Below, in pieces: positions 6,021-17,075 of a stretch of 64,000 bases of DNA. Numbering within the stretch: position 1 is the stretch's first letter; every line of letters begins with the position of its first letter. The translations under genes were made by a program, and so were the position numbers. The notes under the pieces are model-generated. The model was not told the origin of the DNA. It searched no databases and worked only from the letters and a program-made list of their open reading frames with translations. Source of the DNA: Williamsia limnetica (GTDB taxonomy: Bacteria > Actinomycetota > Actinomycetes > Mycobacteriales > Mycobacteriaceae); assembly GCF_003217475.1 (NCBI RefSeq), contig NZ_QJSP01000003.1, positions 310,001 through 374,000 of the forward strand, written 5' to 3'.

Positions 6021-7406
6021 TCAGTCGACGAACGTGTCGGCAACCGCGAGTGCAGAGTCCAAGATCTCCAGACCCGCGGCGACTTCGCTGTCGCTGACGT
6101 TGCACGGCGGCACCATGTGGATCCTGTTGAAGTTGGCGAAGGGCAGCAAGCCGCCTTTCTTGCAGGCACCGAGTACCTCGCTCATCGCTGCGCTCGATCC
6201 GCCGTAGGGGGCAAGCGGTTCTCGCGTGTGCGGGTTCTTCACGAGCTCGACGGCCCAGAAGACCCCGACGCCGCGGACCTCACCCACGCTGGGATGGAAT
6301 TCGGCCAGCTTCTCCAGTCCCGGTCCCAGCACCTCTGCACCGATTCTCGCGGCATTGTCGACGATGCCCTCGTCGGTCATCGCGTTGATGGTCGCGACTG
6401 CGGCGGCCGTCGCGAGTGGATGTCCGGAGTAGGTGAGTCCCCCGGGGTAGGGCCGGTCGGCGAACGTCGCCGCGATCTCACCGTTGATGGCCACGCCACC
6501 GAGGGGGACGTACCCGGAGTTCACGCCCTTGGCGAAGGTGATCAGATCGGGGGTCACACCGGAGTGGTTGATGGAGAACCACTTCCCCGTGCGACCGAAC
6601 CCTGCCATCACCTCGTCGGCGATCATCACGATGCCGTGCCGGTCGCACAGTGCGCGTACGCCTTCGAGATATCCGGGTGGCGGCACCATGATGCCTGCAG
6701 TTCCTGGAACCGGTTCGAGCACGATCGCGGCGATCGTCTGCGGGCCCTCCATGGCGACCACCGACTCGAGGTGAGCCAGTGCCCGCTCGGATTCCTGCTG
6801 TTGGTCGGTCGAGTGAAACTCGGTGCGGTACAGGAACGGCCCGAAGAAGTGCACGACACCTGCGGCGCCGTAGTCGTTGGGCCAACGCCGCGGGTCGCCG
6901 GTCATGTTGATCGCGGTGTCGGTACCGCCGTGATACGAGCGGAAGCGGGTGAGCACCTTACGGCGGCCGGTGTGCAGGCGGGCCATCCGCACCGCATGCT
7001 CCACCGCATCGGCGCCGCCGTTGGTGAAGAAGATCTTGTCGAGGTCGCCCGGGGTGCGCTCCGTGATCAGTCGGGCGGCCTCGGACCGGGCGTCGTTGAC
7101 GTGGGCCGGGGCGACCGTACACAGTTTGTTCGCCTGCTCGGCGATGGCGGCCACCACTTTCGGATGCTGGTGGCCGATGTTCGTGTTGACCATCTGCGAC
7201 GAGAAGTCGAGCAGGCGATTGCCGTCGCCGTCCCACACATACGATCCGGCGGCGCCCAGGATCGTCATCGGTTTCAGCTGCGCCTGAGCCGACCAGGAAT
7301 GGAAGACGTGCGCCCGGTCGAGTTCGTAGGCGCGGCGACCGCTTTCTCGCGCGGCGTCCAGAGCCGCCTCGGTCGGGAAGGGGGTGTTGTCGGTGTCCAT
7401 GTTCAC
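6021..7406 (-). CDS. Class III aminotransferase, probable beta-alanine transaminase
   Basis: This PLP enzyme of 461 residues has the fold-type I, class III hallmarks: FTNGGADAVEHAVRMAR, the cofactor Asp in MIADEVMAGFGRTG, and the Schiff-base Lys in ITFAKGVNSGYVPLGG. Related enzymes move the amino group of an omega-amino acid to pyruvate or 2-oxoglutarate. Its GTG start overlaps the stop of the upstream carbamoyl-amidohydrolase (GTGA), and it ends a pyrimidine-degradation gene series. The natural reading is conversion of beta-alanine (from uracil) or 3-aminoisobutyrate (from thymine) to a semialdehyde. An ATG two codons later (7400) is an alternative start. No semialdehyde dehydrogenase lies nearby. 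Confidence 0.8.
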   Translation of the reverse strand: MNMDTDNTPFPTEAALDAARESGRRAYELDRAHVFHSWSAQAQLKPMTILGAAGSYVWDGDGNRLLDFSSQMVNTNIGHQHPKVVAAIAEQANKLCTVAPAHVNDARSEAARLITERTPGDLDKIFFTNGGADAVEHAVRMARLHTGRRKVLTRFRSYHGGTDTAINMTGDPRRWPNDYGAAGVVHFFGPFLYRTEFHSTDQQQESERALAHLESVVAMEGPQTIAAIVLEPVPGTAGIMVPPPGYLEGVRALCDRHGIVMIADEVMAGFGRTGKWFSINHSGVTPDLITFAKGVNSGYVPLGGVAINGEIAATFADRPYPGGLTYSGHPLATAAAVATINAMTDEGIVDNAARIGAEVLGPGLEKLAEFHPSVGEVRGVGVFWAVELVKNPHTREPLAPYGGSSAAMSEVLGACKKGGLLPFANFNRIHMVPPCNVSDSEVAAGLEILDSALAVADTFVD

Positions 7407-8710
7407 AGTCTGCCTTCCGCCATGCGCGCCACGGTCTCGGTCAGGACGTCCACACCTGCGGTCAGGTCCTGATCGTGGGTGTATTCATTCTCCGCGTGTG
7501 AGACACCGTCGACGCTGGGAATGAACAACATGACCGTCGGCACGATGTCCTTCATGTTGGTCGAATCGTGCCCGGCCCGGGTCCGCACCTGCATATGGCT
7601 GTGGCCCAGCGCGTCGATCACGTCTTCGGCCAGCGCCACGCCCTCGGGCTGGTAGGTGTGGCCCTTCCAGGTGTGTGCGAAACGGCGCTCGATCTGCACA
7701 TCGGCGGCGACCTCGATTTCCGCGAATGCCCGATTGAGCTTCGCGTCGGCCTCGTCGAGCAACTCATCCGATGGCGACCGCAGGTCGAGATGCATGTGGA
7801 CCTCCCGCGCCACCACCACCGGTGAGTTCGGATACACGTTCAGCTGCCCGCATGAGGTGTGCAGATCGTCGCCGTATTCGTCGGCGAGCTCACGTAGGGC
7901 CACCACCGCCTTCGCGGCCCCGTACAACGCATCCTGACGGTCGGCGATGGCCGTGGCACCGGTGTGCGACTGCGCGCCGATCACCGAGATCTCGTATTTG
8001 TTGGCGCCCCATGTCGAGGGGACCACCCCCATCAGCACCCCCGCCTTGTCGAGTTCGCGGCCCTGCTCGATATGGATCTCGGCATATGAAGCCACGCTCA
8101 ACCCGCCCGGTGTGTGGTGCTCACCCGTCGTGAAGACGTCGTCGGCCCCGAGCATGTCCCAGCTCGCCAGCGCCTGGGCCACGGTGGTCCCCGAAGTGTC
8201 CTGGGTGTTCAGCGCTACGTCGAGATCGATCTTCCCGGTGAACACCCCGCTCCCCTGCATCGACGGCTTGAACCGCGACCCCTCCTCGTTGAACCAGTTG
8301 ATCACCGCCAAGTTGTGCACGGCCTGATCGGGATTGGCGAGGTAGTACCGGCGCAGTCGGTCCATGGTGTGCGCCGCGGCGAGCACACCGTATGCGCCGT
8401 CGAATCGGCCACCGCGGGGCTGACTGTCCAGATGAGAACCCGCGAGCACATACGGCGCTCCGGGCACCAACTCATAGAGCCCGAACATGTTGCCGACGCG
8501 GTCATAACGCACGTCGAAGCCGCGATCGGTGAGCCAACCCGCCAACCACCGCCGGTTCTGGGCGTCGGCCTCCGTCGCCGCCTGTCTCTCGACTCCGCCG
8601 GCCGGTGTGGCCCCGAACGTCGACATCGTAGCGAAGTCCTCGATGAAGTCGGCGTCGGCGGTCGGGTCCTGCCCGATCCGCACTGCGACAGAAGAATCAG
8701 ATGTGCTCAT
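7403..8710 (-). CDS. M20-family amidohydrolase, probable N-carbamoyl-beta-alanine hydrolase
   Basis: The 435-residue protein belongs to the M20 AllC/HyuC/beta-ureidopropionase group. Metal-site motifs appear in order: GSHLDSQPRGGRFDGAYG (His93, Asp104), NWFNEEGSRF, EIHIEQGRELD, and a final TRAGHDSTNM. Such enzymes remove ammonia and CO2 from N-carbamoyl amino acids or allantoate. Between dihydropyrimidinase and a beta-alanine-type transaminase, the best fit is N-carbamoyl-beta-alanine, as in the yeast PYD3 type. Allantoate is less likely because no allantoinase or urate genes are present. It overlaps the aminotransferase by 4 bp. Confidence 0.82.
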   Translation of the reverse strand: MSTSDSSVAVRIGQDPTADADFIEDFATMSTFGATPAGGVERQAATEADAQNRRWLAGWLTDRGFDVRYDRVGNMFGLYELVPGAPYVLAGSHLDSQPRGGRFDGAYGVLAAAHTMDRLRRYYLANPDQAVHNLAVINWFNEEGSRFKPSMQGSGVFTGKIDLDVALNTQDTSGTTVAQALASWDMLGADDVFTTGEHHTPGGLSVASYAEIHIEQGRELDKAGVLMGVVPSTWGANKYEISVIGAQSHTGATAIADRQDALYGAAKAVVALRELADEYGDDLHTSCGQLNVYPNSPVVVAREVHMHLDLRSPSDELLDEADAKLNRAFAEIEVAADVQIERRFAHTWKGHTYQPEGVALAEDVIDALGHSHMQVRTRAGHDSTNMKDIVPTVMLFIPSVDGVSHAENEYTHDQDLTAGVDVLTETVARMAEGRL

Positions 8711-8740
8711 GGAAGGTCCCTTCGATGTTCTGCGTTACCA

Positions 8741-9760
8741 CTATGCGCGCGCGGCGAGTGTCGGGGCCAGTGCCGGGATGATCGTTTCGCCATAGGCGCC
8801 GAGAGTGGCATCTTTACCGTCGTGCTGGAGGTAGACCGCGAATTGGTCGACGCCGAGCGAACGCAGTTCCTCGAGCCGCTCGATGTGCTGATCAGGGGTT
8901 CCCAGCAGACAGAATCGGTCGACTATCTCGTCGGGCACGAAACTGGTGTGGCTGTTGCCCACCCGCCCGTGTTCGTTGTAGTCGTACCCGGTGCGGTTCT
9001 TGATGTAGTCGGTCAGCGCGGCGGGTACCTGGGTGTCGTCGCCACCGTATTTGTTCACCAGGTCGGCGACGTGGTTGCCCACCATGCCACCGAACCAGCG
9101 ACACTGATCACGTTGGTGCTCAATGTCTTCGCCCACGTACGCGGGCGCTGCGACGACGATGGACACCGCGTCGGGGTCTCGGCCGGCCGCCTCAGCAGCC
9201 TGTTTGACCCTGGTGACGGTCCACTCCACGATGGTGGGATCGGCCAGTTGCAGGATGAACCCGTCGGCGACCTGCCCGATCATCTCCAGAGCCTTGGGCC
9301 CGTACCCGGCGCCGTAGACGTCCAGGCGCGACCTGCCGGCCCACGGAAACCTGATCTCGGTGTCGTTGATGGTCGCGGTCCGGCCGTTGCCCAGTTCCTG
9401 GATGACCGAGATGCTCTCCCGCAAGGTCGCCAGTGTCGACGGCTTACCCGAGAGGACGCGAACCGCCGAGTCGCCGCGGCCTATCCCGCACACCGTTCGG
9501 TTGCCGTACATGGCGTTGAGCGTCGCGAACGTCGAGGCCGTGACGGTGGCGTCCCTCGTCAACGGATTGGTGACCATCGGCCCCACGATCACGTTGCGGG
9601 TGGCCGCGAGGATCTGGCTGTAGATCACATTCGGCTCGTGCCAGAGCACGTGTGAGTCGAAGGTCCAGACGTGCGTGAAGCCGCGATTCTCTGCGGCCAC
9701 CGCCAGCTCGACGACCCGTGAGGCCGGTGGATTGCATTGCATGACAACGCCGAAGTCCAT
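8741..9760 (-). CDS. Luciferase-like, predicted F420-dependent oxidoreductase
   Basis: This 339-residue bacterial-luciferase-fold protein has the style of F420-binding members of the family: MDFGVVMQCNPPASRVVELA at the N-terminus, FTHVWTFDSHVLWHEPNVIY, and a CGIGRGDSAVRVLSGKP cofactor loop. I recall it as a subfamily (TIGR03842-type) that often sits beside dihydropyrimidinase genes; that is memory, not a search. Here it lies between the carbamoyl-amidohydrolase (30 bp away) and dihydropyrimidinase (13 bp away), so it is almost certainly part of the same pathway. No canonical dihydropyrimidine dehydrogenase gene is present. It may therefore reduce uracil or thymine to the dihydro form with F420H2. 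FMN use cannot be excluded. Confidence 0.78.
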   Translation of the reverse strand: MDFGVVMQCNPPASRVVELAVAAENRGFTHVWTFDSHVLWHEPNVIYSQILAATRNVIVGPMVTNPLTRDATVTASTFATLNAMYGNRTVCGIGRGDSAVRVLSGKPSTLATLRESISVIQELGNGRTATINDTEIRFPWAGRSRLDVYGAGYGPKALEMIGQVADGFILQLADPTIVEWTVTRVKQAAEAAGRDPDAVSIVVAAPAYVGEDIEHQRDQCRWFGGMVGNHVADLVNKYGGDDTQVPAALTDYIKNRTGYDYNEHGRVGNSHTSFVPDEIVDRFCLLGTPDQHIERLEELRSLGVDQFAVYLQHDGKDATLGAYGETIIPALAPTLAARA

Positions 9761-9773
9761 GAGAGTCTCCTTC

Positions 9774-11195
9774 TCAGATCAGGTTCTGCGAGAGCTCGCG
9801 GCGGACGAACTGCCCGTCCGCACGAGAGCCGAGGTAAGTTCGGCGCTCGACGATCTTCTTGCCCCGCGAGAGCACGGTGTCGACGGCGCCGTCGATCTCG
9901 AAACCCTCCCAGGCCGAATAGTCCATGTTCATGTGGTGCGTTTTGTCGACCCCGATGCTGGTGTGCCCGTTGGGGTCATAAACGACCACGTCGGCGTCGG
10001 CACCCGGGGAGATCACGCCTTTGCGGGGGTACATCCCGAACATTCGGGCCGGGGTCGTAGCACACACCTCGACCCACCGCTCCAGACTGATCCGACCGTC
10101 GACGACGCCCTGGTACATCAGGTCGAGCCGGTGTTCGACTCCCCCGATGCCGTTGGGAATCTTGGAGAAATCGGAGATCCCGAGCTCTTTCTGGTCGACC
10201 ATGCAGAACGGGCAGTGGTCGGTGGCGACGCCCGCGACGTCGCCGGTGCGGATGAACTTCCACAATTCGTCCTGATGTCCTTCTGCCCGAGACCGCAACG
10301 GAGTCGAGCAGACCCACTTCGCACCCTCGAATCCCGGCGCTCCGAGCTGCTCCTCGAGGGAGAGGTAGAGGTACTGCGGGCACGTCTCGGCGAAGACGTT
10401 CGCGCCGCGACCTCGGGCCGTCGCGATCTGCTCGAGCGCCTGGCGGGCCGAGACATGCACCACGTACAGCGGGGCGCCGGTCACATCCGCGAGCATGATG
10501 GCTCGATGGGTGGCTTCTTCTTCGAGTTGCCACGGCCGCGACACCCCGTGGTAGTACGGCGAGGTCTCACCTCGTTTGAGGTGCTGCGACACCAATTCGT
10601 CGATGGCGATGCCGTTCTCGGCGTGCATCATCATCAGCGCGCCGGTATCGGCCGACTTCTGCATGGCGCGCAGGATCTGCCCGTCGTTCGAGTAGTAGAC
10701 GCCGGGGTATGCCATGAACAGCTTGAAGCTGGTGACCCCTTCGGTGATCAGTTCACCCATCGCAGAGATCGATTCGTCGTTGACGTCCCCGACGATCTGA
10801 TGGAAGCCGTAGTCGATGGCACAGTTCCCCGCGGCCTTCTCGTGCCACTGCGCAAGGGTGTCCTGCAACCGCTGACCCGGAGTCTGGATCGCGAAGTCGA
10901 CGATCGTCGTCGTGCCGCCGAATGCAGCCGCCCTGGTGCCGGTTTCGAAGGTGTCCGAGGCGGTGGTGCCGCCGAACGGCATCTGCATGTGGGTGTGGGC
11001 GTCCACGCCACCGGGGATGACGTACTTTCCGGTCGCATCGATCACCTCATCGACACTGCCGGCGAGATCGGCGCCGAAGGTTGCCGACCCGGGCTCGATC
11101 AGGGCCACGATGGATTCACCGTCGATCAGTACATCGATGAGCTGTCTGCCGGTGGCGGAGATGACGGTGCCACCGCTGATCAGAGTTGTCGACAT
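9774..11195 (-). CDS. Dihydropyrimidinase / D-hydantoinase
   Basis: This 473-residue cyclic amidohydrolase opens the ring of dihydrouracil or dihydrothymine to the N-carbamoyl amino acid. The binuclear zinc site is complete: GGVDAHTHMQMPFGG (His67, His69), the carboxylated Lys in SFKLFMAYPG (Lys158), MMMHAENG (His191), YVVHVSARQ (His247) and ATDHCPF (Asp326). Length and motif spacing match the bacterial dihydropyrimidinase/hydantoinase family. Its ATG shares one base with the stop of the upstream permease gene. The next genes downstream encode the F420-type enzyme, the carbamoyl-amidohydrolase and the transaminase, giving a coherent pyrimidine-degradation order. Confidence 0.9.
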   Translation of the reverse strand: MSTTLISGGTVISATGRQLIDVLIDGESIVALIEPGSATFGADLAGSVDEVIDATGKYVIPGGVDAHTHMQMPFGGTTASDTFETGTRAAAFGGTTTIVDFAIQTPGQRLQDTLAQWHEKAAGNCAIDYGFHQIVGDVNDESISAMGELITEGVTSFKLFMAYPGVYYSNDGQILRAMQKSADTGALMMMHAENGIAIDELVSQHLKRGETSPYYHGVSRPWQLEEEATHRAIMLADVTGAPLYVVHVSARQALEQIATARGRGANVFAETCPQYLYLSLEEQLGAPGFEGAKWVCSTPLRSRAEGHQDELWKFIRTGDVAGVATDHCPFCMVDQKELGISDFSKIPNGIGGVEHRLDLMYQGVVDGRISLERWVEVCATTPARMFGMYPRKGVISPGADADVVVYDPNGHTSIGVDKTHHMNMDYSAWEGFEIDGAVDTVLSRGKKIVERRTYLGSRADGQFVRRELSQNLI

Positions 11196-12514
11196 CAGTT
11201 TCCCTGCTTTCCTGCCAGTTCGCGGTCCGGGTCGGTGGGATCGATCGGGTCGGCCTGCACCCGTTGGTCAACCACGACCGTGCCGCGCCAGGTTCCGATC
11301 AATCGCATGACGTGGTAGATGATCACCGCGGAGATCGCGCCGAGGGCGATGCCGCCGAAGCTGAGATCCCCGATCTTCCAGGAGAAATCGGCGATGCCGA
11401 TGACGAGGGCGATGGCTGCGGTGAACTGGTTGATCGGCTTGGAGAAGTCGACCTTGTTGGTGACCCAGATGTGGACGCCGAGGATTCCGACCAGTCCGTA
11501 CAGGGCGATGGTGACACCACCGAGGACGCCCGGCGGGATGGAGGCGATGACCGCGCCCACCTTCGGCGACAGGCCCAGCAGGATGGCTGCTGCACCCGCG
11601 ACCCAGTAGGCCGCCGTCGAGTACACCTTCGTCGCCGCCATGACGCCGATGTTCTCGGCGTAGGTGGTGGTGGCCGAACCGCCGCCACTACCGGCGATCA
11701 CGGTGGCCAAACCGTCTGCCGCCAAGGCTTTTCCGATGCGGTGATCGTTGTTGATGCCGGTCATGGTGTTGATGGACTTCACGTGTCCGATGTTCTCGAC
11801 GACCAGGACGAGCACGACGGGGATGAACATCGGCAGGACCGACAGGTGGAAGGTGGGGGTGGCGAAGTCCGGCAGTCCCACCCAGCTCGCCGCACTGATC
11901 GGGTCGGTGTCGACCTCCCCGCGGGCCAGAGCGATGAAGTACCCGATGACGACACTGAGGAAGATCGCGAGCCGGCCGAGCAGCCCACGAAAAAGCACCA
12001 GGGACAGGACCAGCAGGACCAGCACGATGAAAGCGGTCACCGCGCCCTGCTCGAAGTTGGTCTTGGCCGTCGGAGCCAGGTTGAAACCGACAAGGGCGAC
12101 AATCGAACCGGTGACGACCGGAGGCATCATGGCCTCGATCCAGCCGATGCCGCTGAAGTTGACCACCACGCCGATGATCATCAGCAGGGCTCCGACCACG
12201 ACGATACCGCCGAGCGCACCCCCGGGCCCGTGAGCGGTGGAGGCGGCGATCGCCGGTGCGATGATGGCGAAACTCGAACCGAGGTAGCTCGGCAGGCGGT
12301 TGCGGGTGATGATCAGGAACAGGATCGTGCCGATGCCGGAGAACAGCAGTGTTGTCGCGGGCGGGAATCCGGTGAGTACGGGCACGAGGAAGGTGGCGCC
12401 GAACATGGCGACCACGTGCTGTAGGCCGATACCCACCGTTTTGGGCCAGCTCAGCCGTTCATGCGGTGCGACAACGGCATCACCGGTCTTGACTTGCCAG
12501 TCGAAGATGGACAT
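11195..12514 (-). CDS. NCS2 nucleobase:cation symporter (uracil/xanthine permease)
   Basis: The 439-residue integral membrane protein has the UraA-type pattern: GLQHVVAMFGATFLVPVL in the first helices, RLPSYLGSSFAIIAPAIA, and the family motif region MPPVVTGSIVALVGFNLAP, with about 14 membrane spans. NCS2 proteins import uracil, thymine or xanthine with a cation. The start ATG at 12514 has AAAGGA about 7 bp upstream; an upstream GTG at 12532 lies before that ribosome site. It is the first gene of the pyrimidine operon, directly upstream of dihydropyrimidinase, which favours a pyrimidine as the imported substrate. The C-terminal 20 residues are hydrophilic. Confidence 0.88.
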   Translation of the reverse strand: MSIFDWQVKTGDAVVAPHERLSWPKTVGIGLQHVVAMFGATFLVPVLTGFPPATTLLFSGIGTILFLIITRNRLPSYLGSSFAIIAPAIAASTAHGPGGALGGIVVVGALLMIIGVVVNFSGIGWIEAMMPPVVTGSIVALVGFNLAPTAKTNFEQGAVTAFIVLVLLVLSLVLFRGLLGRLAIFLSVVIGYFIALARGEVDTDPISAASWVGLPDFATPTFHLSVLPMFIPVVLVLVVENIGHVKSINTMTGINNDHRIGKALAADGLATVIAGSGGGSATTTYAENIGVMAATKVYSTAAYWVAGAAAILLGLSPKVGAVIASIPPGVLGGVTIALYGLVGILGVHIWVTNKVDFSKPINQFTAAIALVIGIADFSWKIGDLSFGGIALGAISAVIIYHVMRLIGTWRGTVVVDQRVQADPIDPTDPDRELAGKQGN

Positions 12515-12607
12515 GTGAGTTCCTTTCGGCACCGCGGGGTGACGGGGCCAGCTGTTAGGGAAAAGATCGACGCCGGTGTCGAAGGGTGATCGGGTCAGGA
12601 CGATTCG

Positions 12608-12635: not shown

Positions 12636-13040
12636 TCAGGGTGATTCGAGGGTCAGGTGGTTGATCCGGAAGGCATTGCCCTCAGGGTCGAGGAAGACCG
12701 ACTGCCAGGCGCCGTAGTACGTGCGTGCCGGCGCCTTCACGCAGGTGGCACCCGCGGCGACGGCCGTCTTGGTGGCGGTGTCGACCTCGTCGTCATCGGC
12801 CATCTCGAAGGTGAGGAACGAACTCACTCCATCGCCCGGGTTCTCGGGGGCGGCGAGATTGAGCATGTCGTAGGCGGTATGGGCGCTGAAGCCGAGCACG
12901 GTGTCACCGACGCGCAGCCCCCGGAAGTGTTCAGAACGCAATTCGACGACTTCGTCGAATCCGAACACGCGGCGGTAGAAATCGCTGAGTTTGCCGATGT
13001 CGTCGGCGAAGACGCTGGCGAAGGACAGTCCTGTGGTCAT
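12636..13040 (-). CDS. VOC-superfamily protein (glyoxalase/dioxygenase fold)
   Basis: This 134-residue single-module protein has two beta-alpha-beta-beta-beta units: LSFASVFADDIGKLSDFYRR, then FRGLRVGDTVLGFS, SSFLTFEMADDDEVDTATK and SVFLDPEGNAFRINHL. Members of the fold bind a metal and act as glyoxalases, epimerases, extradiol dioxygenases or resistance proteins; function cannot be read from the fold alone. It stands 22 bp downstream of a lone ferredoxin gene and may be the last gene of the oxygenase-ferredoxin transcript. It could be a lyase or dioxygenase acting on an oxidised nucleobase product, but that is speculative. Confidence 0.7.
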   Translation of the reverse strand: MTTGLSFASVFADDIGKLSDFYRRVFGFDEVVELRSEHFRGLRVGDTVLGFSAHTAYDMLNLAAPENPGDGVSSFLTFEMADDDEVDTATKTAVAAGATCVKAPARTYYGAWQSVFLDPEGNAFRINHLTLESP

Positions 13041-13061
13041 GGGTTGGGCACTCCTGGGCTT

Positions 13062-13349
13062 TCAGAGATCGACGGCGAGGCGTGGTGTCAGAGACCGGCT
13101 GACGCAGAGGATGACTCGCTTTCCCGCGTCTCGGGCGCGCTGGGAGAGCACGGTGTCGCGGTGATCGGGGATTCCGTCGAGCACCGTCGCGACACAGGCG
13201 CCGCATTCTCCTTGCAGACAGTTGAACTCCGCGTGCGGGAGCTCCTGACGGACGATTTCGAGCGCGGTGCGGTCAGCGGGCACCACCCGGACGACGCCCG
13301 TTCGGCGCAGTTCGATCTCGAACGACGCCGGCGCGTGCTCGGTCATCAC
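13062..13349 (-). CDS. Stand-alone plant-type [2Fe-2S] ferredoxin (phthalate-dioxygenase-reductase C-terminal type)
   Basis: This 95-residue protein holds all four cluster ligands: Cys44, Cys49 and Cys52 in NCLQGECGAC, and Cys82 in KRVILCVSRS. The sequence around LDGIPDHRDTVLS and the ending LTPRLAVDL match the C-terminal ferredoxin domain of phthalate dioxygenase reductase or vanillate demethylase reductase (VanB). The FMN and NAD domains of those proteins are absent, so a separate reductase must supply electrons. The upstream oxygenase stop TAG shares its G with the GTG start here; an ATG one codon later is equally possible. 2-Oxoglutarate oxygenases need no ferredoxin, so the physiological partner is unclear. 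Confidence 0.82.
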   Translation of the reverse strand: MMTEHAPASFEIELRRTGVVRVVPADRTALEIVRQELPHAEFNCLQGECGACVATVLDGIPDHRDTVLSQRARDAGKRVILCVSRSLTPRLAVDL

Positions 13350-14341
13350 TATGAGCTCAGGACAATCGTTTTCGCGAACTTGGACGTCAGATGATCACCT
13401 GAGCTGATCGGCGCGTACTTGGGCTGGTCGCCCTCGGCGACACAGGTGGGCAGGCATTCGATCATCGCGTCGTAGTTCGGCTGATGGAAGAAGACCAGGG
13501 ACATGCGCTTGGTGTTGCCGCCGGCGTCGGGCCGCGGTGTGCGAACGCGATGCCGGGTGGAGGTCCACTGATCATTGGTCCACTGCGCCATGAGGTCTCC
13601 GATGTTGACCACCAGTGCGTCCGGCACAACAGGCACCGGGATCCAGTCTCCGTCCTTCGTGAACACCTCGAGGCCGCCCGGCGCTTCTTCCTGACGGACA
13701 ATGGTGAGGCTGCCGTAGTCGGTGTGAGCACCGGCGCGCATCTGGCCGGGTTGGGGCGGGGTGGTCATGTGCGGGTAGTTGATGGCCCTCAGCATGGAGA
13801 TGTCCTTGTCGATGGTGTCGACGAAGAAGTCGGGGTCCAATCCGAGGCCACGAGCGAAGGCGCTCATCAGCTTTCGCGACAGATCGTTCATCACCCGGAA
13901 ATAGGTGGTCCACGCCTGCTCCATGGTCGCCGGTGTCTGGGGCCACTGGTTGGGCAGGAAGTGCGGTCCGGCGTTCTCTTTCGAGAAATACGGATCGGCG
14001 CCGTCGAAGTCGACCGGACCGACGTCGAACTTCTCGTGCAGATCACGTGGCTGCTGTACGTCTTCGCTGTACGAGAAGGCCTGTTCGCCGATCGAGGAGT
14101 ACCCGCGGACGGTGTCGGGGCTCGGTTGCGCCACCCGGCGCTTGTCGGCTTCGGGCAGAGAGAAGAACTCGTCGGAGGTGCGGTACATCGCGTCGATGAC
14201 CTCCGCCGGGACGCCGTGATTCTTGATCTGGAAGAAACCGATCTCGCGGCAGGCGAGATCGAGTTCGGCAGCGACCGCGGCCTTGGCCTCGTCGTCACCG
14301 TCGTGCAGGGCAGAAATGTCGATCACCGGCACCACAGACAT
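13349..14341 (-). CDS. Isopenicillin-N-synthase-like 2-oxoglutarate/Fe(II) oxygenase, intact active site
   Basis: The 330-residue protein has an N-terminal DIOX_N-like domain (PVIDISALHDGDD, then IGFFQIKNHGVP) and a double-stranded beta-helix core. The iron triad is complete: His206 and Asp208 in GAHTDYGS, and His264 in STRHRV. The 2-oxoglutarate-binding pair is Arg279-x-Ser281 in KRMSLVFF. Fungal thymine 7-hydroxylase belongs to this superfamily. With a uracil/xanthine permease and a pyrimidine operon next door, an oxidised nucleobase is a reasonable substrate guess; a beta-lactam role is not supported. The start at 14341 begins the conserved region. It is coupled to the ferredoxin gene and has a paralog 200 bp upstream. 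Confidence 0.83.
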   Translation of the reverse strand: MSVVPVIDISALHDGDDEAKAAVAAELDLACREIGFFQIKNHGVPAEVIDAMYRTSDEFFSLPEADKRRVAQPSPDTVRGYSSIGEQAFSYSEDVQQPRDLHEKFDVGPVDFDGADPYFSKENAGPHFLPNQWPQTPATMEQAWTTYFRVMNDLSRKLMSAFARGLGLDPDFFVDTIDKDISMLRAINYPHMTTPPQPGQMRAGAHTDYGSLTIVRQEEAPGGLEVFTKDGDWIPVPVVPDALVVNIGDLMAQWTNDQWTSTRHRVRTPRPDAGGNTKRMSLVFFHQPNYDAMIECLPTCVAEGDQPKYAPISSGDHLTSKFAKTIVLSS

Positions 14342-14455
14342 CGTGTTCTCACTCCTTGTTCGTCGTCTCCGACCAAGTCTGTTGGCAACGCGAAAGGCCG
14401 ACAAGGGGCAGGCGCTCCGACAGATCCGAACCCGGACTGTCACCTCGCGTCAATC

Positions 14456-14484
14456 GAAACATCTGCGTAACACTGGATTACGCA
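14456..14484 (-). promoter_or_regulatory. Candidate nitrogen-control (GlnR-like) site and inverted repeat
   Basis: GAAAC (14456-14460), 6 bp, then GTAAC (14467-14471) gives the AC-n9-AC pattern known for actinobacterial GlnR boxes. Overlapping it is a perfect inverted repeat TGCGTAA (14464-14470) and TTACGCA (14478-14484). The site is about 120 bp upstream of the intact oxygenase start, in the 200-bp gap between the two oxygenase genes. GlnR control would suit a nitrogen-scavenging nucleobase cluster. The GlnR consensus is loose, so chance matches occur; the inverted repeat itself is certain. Confidence 0.4.
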
Positions 14485-14541
14485 ATCGACTTCTGGCACA
14501 TCACGCCGTTAACAGTTCGCGAGCGCAGGTCCGCCAATACG

Positions 14542-15519
14542 TCAGCGCCGCGGACGTCGACCGAACGTCGTCTGCCGCACGTATTTGTCAGTCAGATGCC
14601 GTCCCGCGATGAGACCGTCATCGAACTGCTGGTCTCCGCCGCGCAGCGGTGAGACCGCAACATCTGCATTGGGATGTTGGTAGAAGGCGAACTCCAGTCG
14701 GGAGCTGTCCAGGGCCACCGAGCGGGGTGGGTTGGCGGTGCGATTCAAGGTGGCAGGCCACTGGTCTCCGGTCCACTCGGCCAGCAGGTCCCCGACCAGC
14801 ACGACGAGCGTCGCCGGCGTGGTCGCGACCTCGTGCCACTCACCGTGCCGTCCGAGGACCTCGAGTCCACCCGGTGTCGATTCGGCCGATGTCACGGTGA
14901 ACGCGCCGTAGTCGGTGTGGATACCCGCACGCGACTGATGTGGCAGCGGCGACTCCCCCTGCGCCGGGTAGTAGAGCGCCCGCAACATACTCAGCTCGGT
15001 GTCGAAGTCACCGGCGAAGTGATCCGCGGGCAGGCCGAACAGTTCCGCGGTGAGCGACATCAACTCGCCGCCGATGCGCTGCATGTGGCGGTAGTACTGC
15101 TCCCAGACCGACCGGAAGCCGGCAGGCGCCGCAGGCCACAGGTTCGGATAGGCCATCGGACCGGCACCCGGTTCACCGAGCACCGGTGCATCGACAGGGC
15201 CGATGTCCATCTTCTCCTTGAGGTCGCCGTGGGACTCCTCACCCAACGAGTACGACATCCCCTCCGAGCCCGATCCGGACCAGCCGCGCACCTGATCCGG
15301 AGCCGGCTGGGCGACCTGCTCCTTCACCGATTCCGGCAGCAGAAAGAACTGCCGGGACGTCGAATACAGCTCGGCCAGCAGTGCTGCCGGTATCCGGTGC
15401 CCGACCAGGTAGGCGTGGCCGGACCGGGTGCAGGCGGTGTCGAGGAGCTCGATCTGGCGGGCACGCGAGGGGGTGCCCGGCCCGATCTCGGAAAGATCGA
15501 CCGGCGGGATGGAGAGCAC
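14542..15519 (-). CDS. Isopenicillin-N-synthase-like paralog with altered iron site
   Basis: This 325-residue protein starts at a GTG (VLSIPPVDLSEIG) and is clearly paralogous to the neighbouring oxygenase: LPESVKEQVAQPAPDQVRGW and GIHTDYGAFTV align with it throughout. His201 and Asp203 of the iron triad are kept. The distal His is Asn259 (ATLNRTANP, where the paralog has STRHRVRTP), and the Arg-x-Ser 2-oxoglutarate motif reads Arg274-Leu-Glu276. The frame is otherwise intact, so this is not simple decay. It may use a different ligand set, bind substrate without turning it over, or serve a regulatory role beside the divergent PucR gene. Confidence 0.78.
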   Translation of the reverse strand: MLSIPPVDLSEIGPGTPSRARQIELLDTACTRSGHAYLVGHRIPAALLAELYSTSRQFFLLPESVKEQVAQPAPDQVRGWSGSGSEGMSYSLGEESHGDLKEKMDIGPVDAPVLGEPGAGPMAYPNLWPAAPAGFRSVWEQYYRHMQRIGGELMSLTAELFGLPADHFAGDFDTELSMLRALYYPAQGESPLPHQSRAGIHTDYGAFTVTSAESTPGGLEVLGRHGEWHEVATTPATLVVLVGDLLAEWTGDQWPATLNRTANPPRSVALDSSRLEFAFYQHPNADVAVSPLRGGDQQFDDGLIAGRHLTDKYVRQTTFGRRPRR

Positions 15520-15593
15520 GCGACTACTCTGCCTCACAGTCGGGTTCGGCGCCGCCTTCGAGAGCGCATCGACCGCTGACGAGGAGGAATGTG

Positions 15594-17075
15594 GTGACCA
15601 GCGGGACTGCGACCGTCGCAGATCTGGCGGTCGCGACCGGTGTCCAGATCGCCACCACACCGGCCACCTGGGACACCGCGGTGACCTCGGTGGTCGAGGC
15701 CGGCGAGGCACTCGACACGGTCGCGCTCGACGGCGCGGTGGTGGTGATCTCGTGGCAACCGGCTCGGCCGAACGGCCCACTTCCCGATCTGCGTTCGTTG
15801 CTCGACCCCCTGATCAGGAAGAAGCCTGCGGCGATACTCGTCAGCCCGGCGCGACCGGTCAATCCGCCGAAACAGGCCGTGGCGCTCGCAGAACGTGCCG
15901 AAATCTGCCTGCTCTGGAATGTCGGCCCCGATTCGGCGGCCGATGTCGCCGCGAAACTGAGTCGGCTGGTGTTGTCGGTGCAGCCGCCCGCCCCTGTCGA
16001 GGCAAATCCCGATACTGCTCTGCTGAACATCTTGCGCAGCGCCGACGACCTGGACACGCTGCTCGTCGCGATCGGCGACGCAGTGGGAGCATCCGTCCGG
16101 TTGTCGGAAACGATGTCGGGACACGTCCCGGGCACGATGTCGGGACACGTCCCGGGCACGGTCCTGCTTCCGCTCTCGGGCATCGCCGGGACCACACCCG
16201 CCCTCGAGGTCAGCCCGCGGGACACGTTGGGATCGAGCGAACTGGCCATACTCGACGGTGTGCTCGCGGTGGTCCGGCTGCACGTCAAACTCCGGGATAC
16301 ACACGTGGACGACGCATCGGTCGAGATCGCCCGCAACCTGAAGAACATCCTCGGCGAAGACCTGGTCCACCGCGAGGCCAGCCTGCGCAAGAGCCGCCGG
16401 CTGGCGCTGTTCCCCAGGCATGCCGTCGCGGTCCTGGCGATCGAACCCTTCGGCGTCTCGGTCGACATGAACGGACTCCACGATCTCAAGACCTCCCTCG
16501 CGCCGGTCGCGTCGCGGTTCGATCCCGATGCCATCACCATCGTCAACGAGGGGGTCCTGGTCGTGATGATCAAAGCGACCGCCGATCTCGATGCCCTGGC
16601 ACGCGCGCTGTACCGCGGCGTGCAGGTACCGCTTGCTGTCGGCGCCGGCGATCACGTCGACGATCCGCGCAGCTACCCGGGCTCCTTCCGGCAGGCGGTC
16701 CGCGCCGTGGCCGTTGGCCGTCGCATCGGTGCGATCAATCGGGTCACCAGATACCGCGATCTCGGTGTGCTCGGACTGCTCTACCAACTACCCGAGCACG
16801 CGCGACGGGTCTTCGTCGACGAGACGTTGGGCTCCATTGCCGACGAGACACCGGACGGTCTCGATCAACGGCGGATCTTGCGGGTCCTGCGCTCGACGGA
16901 CTGCAACATCGCCGAGTCGGCCCGTGAGTTGTACATCCACCCCAACACGTTGCGGAGCCGGATCGCCCGCATCGAGGCGGTCACCGGCCCGTTCATGAAC
17001 GAGCCCGACCGCCGCCTGACGATCTTCACCGCTCTGTCGATGTTCTCGTTGGACAGCAACGTCGAGGGCGACTGA
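15594..17075 (+). CDS. PucR-family transcriptional regulator
   Basis: The 493-residue protein has a PucR-like N-terminal domain (TVADLAVATGVQI, about 125 residues), a middle region and the typical C-terminal PucR helix-turn-helix. The DNA-binding part reads RRILRVLRSTDCNIAESARE and YIHPNTLRSRIARIEAVTG near residues 420-470. PucR proteins activate purine or other nitrogen-compound catabolism. The start is the GTG at 15594, placed 5-6 bp after GGAGGAA. It is divergent from the altered oxygenase and sits at the head of the nucleobase cluster, so it is the prime candidate regulator. An exact 24-bp in-frame tandem duplication lies near residue 175. Confidence 0.82.
   Translation: MTSGTATVADLAVATGVQIATTPATWDTAVTSVVEAGEALDTVALDGAVVVISWQPARPNGPLPDLRSLLDPLIRKKPAAILVSPARPVNPPKQAVALAERAEICLLWNVGPDSAADVAAKLSRLVLSVQPPAPVEANPDTALLNILRSADDLDTLLVAIGDAVGASVRLSETMSGHVPGTMSGHVPGTVLLPLSGIAGTTPALEVSPRDTLGSSELAILDGVLAVVRLHVKLRDTHVDDASVEIARNLKNILGEDLVHREASLRKSRRLALFPRHAVAVLAIEPFGVSVDMNGLHDLKTSLAPVASRFDPDAITIVNEGVLVVMIKATADLDALARALYRGVQVPLAVGAGDHVDDPRSYPGSFRQAVRAVAVGRRIGAINRVTRYRDLGVLGLLYQLPEHARRVFVDETLGSIADETPDGLDQRRILRVLRSTDCNIAESARELYIHPNTLRSRIARIEAVTGPFMNEPDRRLTIFTALSMFSLDSNVEGD
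16110..16157 (+). repeat. Exact 24-bp tandem duplication inside pucR
   Basis: Positions 16110-16133 and 16134-16157 are identical 24-bp units in direct tandem. They encode the octapeptide TMSGHVPG twice without breaking the frame. Identity at third codon positions points to a recent slippage duplication in the linker between the N-terminal and central regions. Confidence 0.9.

Follow-up and report, generated by a model that had tools for sequence, protein, structure and literature searches.

A TIGR03842 luciferase-like protein in a pyrimidine breakdown operon of Williamsia limnetica as a probable F420H2-dependent uracil/thymine reductase

The stretch of DNA analyzed here (the window) comprises 64,000 nucleotides of Williamsia limnetica (NCBI RefSeq assembly GCF_003217475.1, contig NZ_QJSP01000003.1, positions 310,001 to 374,000 of the forward strand) and carries on its minus strand a five-gene operon (positions 6021-12532 of the window) whose genes are packed head-to-tail, adjacent genes either overlapping by 1 to 4 bases or lying 13 to 30 bases apart (Table 1). 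A first-pass annotation had claimed that this operon encodes a permease, a dihydropyrimidinase (DHPase) with a complete zinc site, an M20 hydrolase, and a class III transaminase, with a luciferase-like protein (LLM) of F420 style encoded between the DHPase and the M20 enzyme, and it had proposed that the LLM replaces the usual dehydrogenase of uracil breakdown as an F420H2-dependent uracil/thymine reductase. Family scans and inspection of the metal residues confirmed the gene content, and the LLM was found to belong to family TIGR03842. The proposed role is supported in silico by the lack of PreA in the genome, by a conserved LLM-DHPase linkage, and by a Leisingera plasmid that carries cof genes together with the LLM gene, and we regard it as very probable that TIGR03842 proteins are F420H2-dependent uracil/thymine reductases.

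Table 1. Genes of the operon and of the adjoining conserved region (window coordinates)
Feature	Coordinates	Strand	Family evidence
Class III aminotransferase, proposed beta-alanine / 3-aminoisobutyrate transaminase (step 4)	6021..7406	-	NF004718 (named hypothetical protein) 808.7 bits, cut-off 472
M20 N-carbamoyl amidohydrolase, proposed beta-ureidopropionase (step 3)	7403..8710	-	TIGR01879 (hydantoinase/carbamoylase) 285 bits, cut-off 204
LLM, proposed F420H2-dependent uracil/thymine reductase (step 1)	8741..9760	-	TIGR03842 577.4 bits, cut-off 295.45
DHPase (step 2)	9774..11195	-	TIGR02033 556 bits, cut-off 393; solved D-hydantoinase/dihydropyrimidinase relatives
NCS2 nucleobase permease (uptake)	11195..12532	-	TIGR00801 299 bits, cut-off 292
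VOC/glyoxalase-fold protein, part of conserved gene order	12636..13040	-	PF00903; same order in G003, G005, G006
2-oxoglutarate (2OG)-Fe(II) oxygenase, thymine-dioxygenase-like	13349..14443	-	PF14226 + PF03171
Second 2OG-Fe(II) oxygenase, thymine-dioxygenase-like (true start probably later)	14542..15780	-	PF14226 + PF03171
PucR-type regulator, divergent from operon (true start probably later)	15381..17075	+	PF13556 HTH_30 + PF17853; position kept in G003, G005, G006

All six residues that we take to be the metal ligands of DHPase (H67, H69, K158, H191, H247, and D326) are present in the window protein. The solved relatives of the M20 enzyme include an N-carbamoyl-beta-alanine amidohydrolase (8c46, 202 bits) and a beta-alanine synthase (1r3n, 160 bits), which rank behind three proteins named as amidases or deacylases and one putative amidohydrolase/peptidase, and the substrate of the transaminase is proposed from the gene context. 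The best full-length model for the permease, whose start lies at either 12532 (GTG) or 12514 (ATG), is RutG, with a score (363.5 bits) below the RutG cut-off (758.65) that does not place it in that family. As in reductive pyrimidine (Pyd) clusters, the genes for DHPase, a putative ureidopropionase-type hydrolase, and a transaminase are clustered. With the Pyd/PreTA pathway the operon shares these three activities and nucleobase uptake, clustered and co-oriented, but step 1 of that pathway is performed by a flavin mononucleotide (FMN)/iron-sulfur enzyme of the dihydroorotate dehydrogenase fold (PydA or PreT/PreA), whereas the operon encodes a luciferase-fold protein linked to F420. The ferredoxin-dependent PydAc (PMC7332683) is another step 1 enzyme of the dihydroorotate dehydrogenase fold.

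The claim that a canonical step 1 dehydrogenase is missing held beyond the operon, which contains neither PydA nor PreA. A search of the whole genome with PF01180 returned three proteins. One is a quinone-type dihydroorotate dehydrogenase (NF003648, 588 bits, above the cut-off); another, best described by a FabK-like model, matches only in part (31.8 bits, above the Pfam cut-off); and the third (22 bits) has no family at E<=1e-20. The PreA model NF006183 had no match in the genome at E<=1e-70, and on these two scans a hidden PreA elsewhere in the genome was rejected.

The match of the LLM to TIGR03842 (F420_CPS_4043) is full length, covering model positions 1-329 of 329, and far above the cut-off. 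NCBI names this model F420-dependent, but it is a hypoth_equivalog without a stated reaction, and the reaction is proposed by the present analysis. The closest solved family is that of the F420-dependent methylenetetrahydromethanopterin reductase (Mer), and the active sites were compared by sequence alignment, with the residues counted by hand. A GPxVTNP loop is common to both proteins, V63 of the window protein standing at Mer Val62; according to a study of Mer (PMC11094777), this loop holds a non-prolyl cis-peptide Gly61-Val62 under F420, and the pterin-facing positions include Asp96 and position 178 (Gln in that enzyme). Mer Asp96 aligns with the invariant D97 of the LLM and position 178 (Asn in the solved chains aligned) with its invariant Q171, and an Asp and a carboxamide at two pterin-facing positions are therefore shared. 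In contrast, the catalytic Glu6 of Mer, which is needed to activate methylene-tetrahydromethanopterin, is V or C in the LLM, and the LLM has a conserved segment of its own (MVGNHVAD...GYDYxxHG). The possibility that the LLM is Mer itself was rejected because it scored 125 bits with TIGR03555, whose cut-off is 348.7, and because Glu6 is not kept. A pocket that grips a pyrimidine-like ring without the pterin-specific acid would fit F420H2 as the donor of a hydride to C6 of uracil, and the kinship with Mer, together with the linkage to cof-npdG operons described below, indirectly suggests that the LLM binds and uses F420.

The genomic neighborhood of the LLM gene was analyzed in the best 80 of at least 588 stretches of species genomes encoding relatives of the LLM, a sample biased to the relatives most similar to the query (65-74% identical), and genes were counted within 8 kb of the LLM gene. 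In the 53 loci where 5 kb or more flank the LLM gene on both sides (full-flank loci), a DHPase gene was always present (53/53, and 74 of all 80 fetched loci), and the LLM gene was accompanied by a step-3-type hydrolase in 52 (51 CN-hydrolases and one M20 enzyme), a transporter gene in 44, a solute-binding protein in 40, and a transaminase in 34. Queries with the E. coli proteins detected PreA/PreT at none of the 80 loci. Among solved proteins, the CN-hydrolase matched fly CG3027 best (2vhh, 207 bits), followed by N-carbamoylputrescine amidohydrolase (200 bits) and beta-ureidopropionase (8pt4, 193 bits). The hydrolase of step 3 thus differs between LLM loci, being either an M20 enzyme or a CN-hydrolase, whereas the LLM and DHPase are constant.

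The association was also analyzed in 197 evenly drawn Actinomycetota genomes; an LLM occurs in 42 of them, a DHPase in 62, and both in 41 (Fisher p 1.7e-25, a significance overstated by the treatment of related genomes as independent). These genomes hold 45 LLM places, of which 33 have a DHPase gene no more than 6.2 kb away and two have one at 12 and 50 kb. PreA was found in only two of the 197 genomes and in none of the 42 with an LLM, and one of the two (G220) encodes PreT-PreA-M20-DHPase in one cluster without an LLM. The mutual exclusion that had been suggested as a check was observed to the extent that LLM and PreA never occur together, a weak test with only two PreA-bearing genomes. CofG is present in 39 of the 42 LLM genomes versus 60 of the 155 genomes without an LLM, and two of the three LLM genomes lacking CofG have CofD. 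Nine DHPase-bearing genomes have neither CofG nor CofD; eight of them are without an LLM, and the ninth (G139) has one.

The window genome contains a second unit, CN-hydrolase-DHPase-LLM, at about 95-98 kb of C3 (L015:7532-11062), with the paralogous LLM at G000:C3:96976-97977 and a TauD/GntD-like oxygenase encoded on the opposite strand. The unit is present in G001 and G002 as well. In a tree of 29 LLM proteins the two copies of the window genome fall into separate well-supported groups, which argues against a recent duplication.

The evidence from Proteobacteria comes from plasmid records, and among them plasmid NZ_CP081034.1 of Leisingera aquaemixtae is the strongest evidence for an F420-linked reductase. 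One of its strands carries cofG-cofH-cofD-cofC-cofE-npdG-LLM followed by a RutR-like TetR gene (198 bits, RutR cut-off 368), and the divergent strand encodes transhydrogenase alpha and beta, an AptA-type aminotransferase, a Zn-dependent hydrolase, DHPase, and an NCS1 nucleobase transporter. Neither PreA nor PreT is annotated in these 26 kb of the plasmid. All ten Leisingera plasmid records that matched the LLM query also carry DHPase and npdG. In a plasmid search for PreA (61 records), Leisingera was not among the ten most frequent names, and every other name was represented by a single record. On a plasmid of Roseinatronobacter, another member of the Rhodobacterales, PreT-PreA accompanies a RutR-like TetR regulator (218 bits, cut-off 368), a Zn-hydrolase, DHPase, and an NMT1-type ABC transporter. 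Comparison of the two clusters suggests that the LLM with its F420 factory stands where PreT/PreA stands. A cof-npdG-LLM operon with an NMT1-type transporter was also found in Paracoccus alcaliphilus. On plasmids of Variovorax sp. PBL-E5 (L199) and Agrobacterium rubi (L200), a complete cof operon is accompanied in each case by an LLM protein of another kind; one of these proteins is a TIGR03842 match under the cut-off (203 bits) and the other is distant, and their neighbors are amidohydrolase, CN-hydrolase, aminotransferase, or carboxyltransferase genes. These proteins are perhaps further F420 reductases of nitrogen heterocycles.

The supply of F420 in the window genome had been named as a check on the reductase proposal, and its outcome was mixed: CofG (466 bits), CofD/FbiA (FbiA, 399 bits), and CofE/FbiB (FbiB, 701 bits) are present, but CofH was found only in a form without the radical S-adenosylmethionine (SAM) motif CxxxCxxC. 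This only CofH homologue found in the genome (G000:C3:377516-378490; L151:5472-6590, minus strand) lies 3.5 kb past the end of the window and scores 302 bits against a cut-off of 374. The motif is also gone from the closest homologue in all nine genomes of the genus and in G014 (relatives L141-L148 and L150), and it is kept in the ten fused FbiC proteins that pass the family cut-off and in the FbiC of G021. In the alignment the CofH-like proteins lack a clean block of 15 residues at the motif and another three residues after it, and the ratio of nonsynonymous to synonymous substitution rates (dN/dS) among six of the genes (0.09-0.26) indicated that the CofH-like gene is under purifying selection. 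A flavin monooxygenase gene adjoins the CofH-like gene in six of six genomes examined, and the order in G014 is CofH-like, monooxygenase, CofG. In four congeners (G005-G008) CofG is fused to a second, divergent CofH-like domain, the like of which was found in none of G000-G004. The fusion protein has 829 residues in G006 and G005 (L149, L153), and the presence of CEPGCRYC in both, the two examined, weakens the case for a full replacement of CofH in those congeners.

The genus may make F420 by a changed route, perhaps with an O2-dependent FO synthesis, or it may salvage the cofactor. Literature searches on CofH listed no report of this, and the conserved loss of the motif is of interest in its own right. 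Uptake of an F420 precursor by the ABC transporter encoded beside CofH (L151:8238-11310, minus strand) was considered and rejected, because its three proteins match F420-0 transporter models best but all below the cut-off, and because the genes were not seen in stretches of 14-16 kb around CofH of five relatives. A wider idea, which we put forward tentatively and judge unlikely as a whole, is that TIGR03842 is a non-homologous means of reducing uracil and thymine, that different phyla share it as a module able to bring its own F420 factory, and that, in this genus, an O2-dependent reaction of the radical-SAM-free CofH and the adjoining flavin monooxygenase takes the place of the radical step of CofH.

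Gene content, family kinship, conserved linkage, the lack of PreA, and the tie to F420 synthesis in Leisingera are observed, and from them we infer substrate, direction, cofactor state, and order of chemical events: the operon would provide a complete reductive pyrimidine breakdown with the LLM at step 1. The LLM would transfer a hydride from F420H2 to C6 of the uracil or thymine ring while C5 receives a proton, yielding the dihydropyrimidine; DHPase would open the dihydropyrimidine ring, the M20 enzyme would remove the carbamate, and the transaminase would pass the beta-amino acid on. The two thymine-dioxygenase-like enzymes encoded next to the operon probably supply this route with pyrimidines that bear a 5-methyl group or another substituent.

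The assignment of the LLM as a uracil/thymine reductase is favored by the absence of PreA, the linkage of LLM and DHPase, the co-occurrence of F420 genes, the Leisingera locus, the second unit, the kinship with Mer, and the thymine-dioxygenase-like neighbors. Besides the bias of the linkage sample and the overstated p-value, several observations weigh against it. Ten of the 45 LLM places have no DHPase on the same contig, and no DHPase is annotated in the roughly 10 kb to one side of the Paracoccus alcaliphilus operon or in the roughly 50 kb to its other side. Twenty of the 197 genomes (e.g. G036, G109, and G120) contain DHPase but neither LLM nor PreA, and the absence of PreA alone is thus weak evidence in Actinomycetota. 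The draft genome G139 bears an LLM and has neither CofG nor CofD, and the loss of the radical-SAM motif from the CofH homologue makes the F420 supply of the window genome uncertain. The linkage of cof operons to other LLM proteins in Variovorax and Agrobacterium suggests that such linkage argues for the cofactor more than for the substrate. The best-scoring model of the M20 enzyme, NF006772 (442 bits, cut-off 424), is that of a subfamily with the name allantoate amidohydrolase, and the best NCBIfam model of the CN-hydrolase is N-carbamoylputrescine amidase, under its cut-off, so that the step 3 enzyme is placed by context. Finally, no assayed TIGR03842 enzyme was found. As regards the 20 genomes with DHPase alone, they may have another step 1 enzyme or a different ureide pathway.

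DHPase-family enzymes accept hydantoins, and the LLM might be F420-dependent while acting mainly on an unsaturated ring other than uracil that is opened by a DHPase/hydantoinase, such as a 5-substituted pyrimidine, an unsaturated hydantoin, or a purine-derived ring. The name of the best M20 model and the resemblance of the other cof-LLM plasmid clusters to different breakdown routes would agree with this possibility, as would a luciferase-family F420 enzyme that is proposed for yanthine in Chloroflexota (PMC12507026). We nevertheless consider another main substrate distinctly unlikely, since the Leisingera cluster has a RutR-like regulator and an NCS1 nucleobase transporter, the window has thymine-dioxygenase-like neighbors, step-3-type hydrolases and transaminases are encoded nearby, and PreT/PreA occupies the place of the LLM in related clusters.

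A role of the LLM as an FMN-dependent oxygenase that opens the ring oxidatively, with DHPase acting on something else, was suggested by RutA, which is also a luciferase-like protein, and by the resemblance of the permease to RutG. The LLM was rejected as a RutA-type oxygenase because the 24 NCBIfam families that match it include no RutA model (E<=0.001; the check for RutA was confined to this protein), and such a role is highly improbable given that its nearest solved family is the F420-dependent Mer, that its gene comes with a cof-npdG operon in Leisingera and Paracoccus, that no flavin reductase is found among the five operon genes, and that DHPase, despite its tight linkage, would have no function if the ring were opened oxidatively. 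It is equally hard to credit that the LLM travels with DHPase as an accessory or unrelated F420 enzyme, with uracil being reduced elsewhere or the pathway using only preformed dihydropyrimidines. Some LLM genes lie on contigs without DHPase, but the window genome has no PreA and two separate LLM units, DHPase is linked to the LLM in every full-flank locus, and the Leisingera set includes the other steps, uptake, and regulation, yet no other annotated step 1 enzyme.

The idea of an F420 pyrimidine reductase has parallels, and the TIGR03842 family and its place in pyrimidine breakdown appear to be unclaimed. No mention of TIGR03842 or CPS_4043 was found in the open-licence library searched, and none of the matches listed there claims, in its title or the start of its abstract, that an F420-dependent enzyme reduces uracil in pyrimidine breakdown. 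The yanthine reductase of Chloroflexota, proposed to replace YgfK/UacX, follows the same logic of a luciferase-family F420 enzyme in place of the usual reductase, but it belongs to a purine pathway, is also only proposed, and is likened here to TIGR03842 by its description (PMC12507026). A putative F420/FMN oxidoreductase, SSGG-03002 (NpsU), is genetically needed for the reduction of the uracil ring C5-C6 bond in mureidomycin (PMC10714638); this likeness too is drawn from the description, the enzyme tailors a nucleoside antibiotic rather than serving breakdown, and the in vitro test of this only published analogue failed, a further point against the assignment. If the proposed role of the LLM is true, a reaction would be given to a widespread F420 family that is annotated but functionless, F420 would be placed in the ordinary nitrogen and carbon scavenging of actinobacteria, and the whole F420 operon on the Leisingera plasmid would be explained. 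It would also provide a second type of reductase for pyrimidine 5,6-reduction outside the PydA family, possibly including drugs such as 5-fluorouracil.

The five-gene core stood as claimed, but the conserved gene set runs on further than the first-pass annotation had stated, to cover positions 12636-17075. The order of the VOC gene, the two 2OG oxygenase genes, and the divergent PucR gene is kept in three of the four operon-bearing congeners examined (G003, G005, and G006), and the fourth (G004) has DHPase-LLM-M20-transaminase only. The best solved match of the oxygenase adjoining the VOC gene is thymine dioxygenase (5c3p, 165 bits), followed by 9ovh (ethylene/succinate-forming, 154 bits), and that of the second oxygenase is again 5c3p (106 bits), barely above 9ovh (105.5 bits). 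Two oxygenases that match thymine dioxygenase best tie the locus to pyrimidines from a second side, and these enzymes may oxidize the methyl group of thymine or feed modified pyrimidines.

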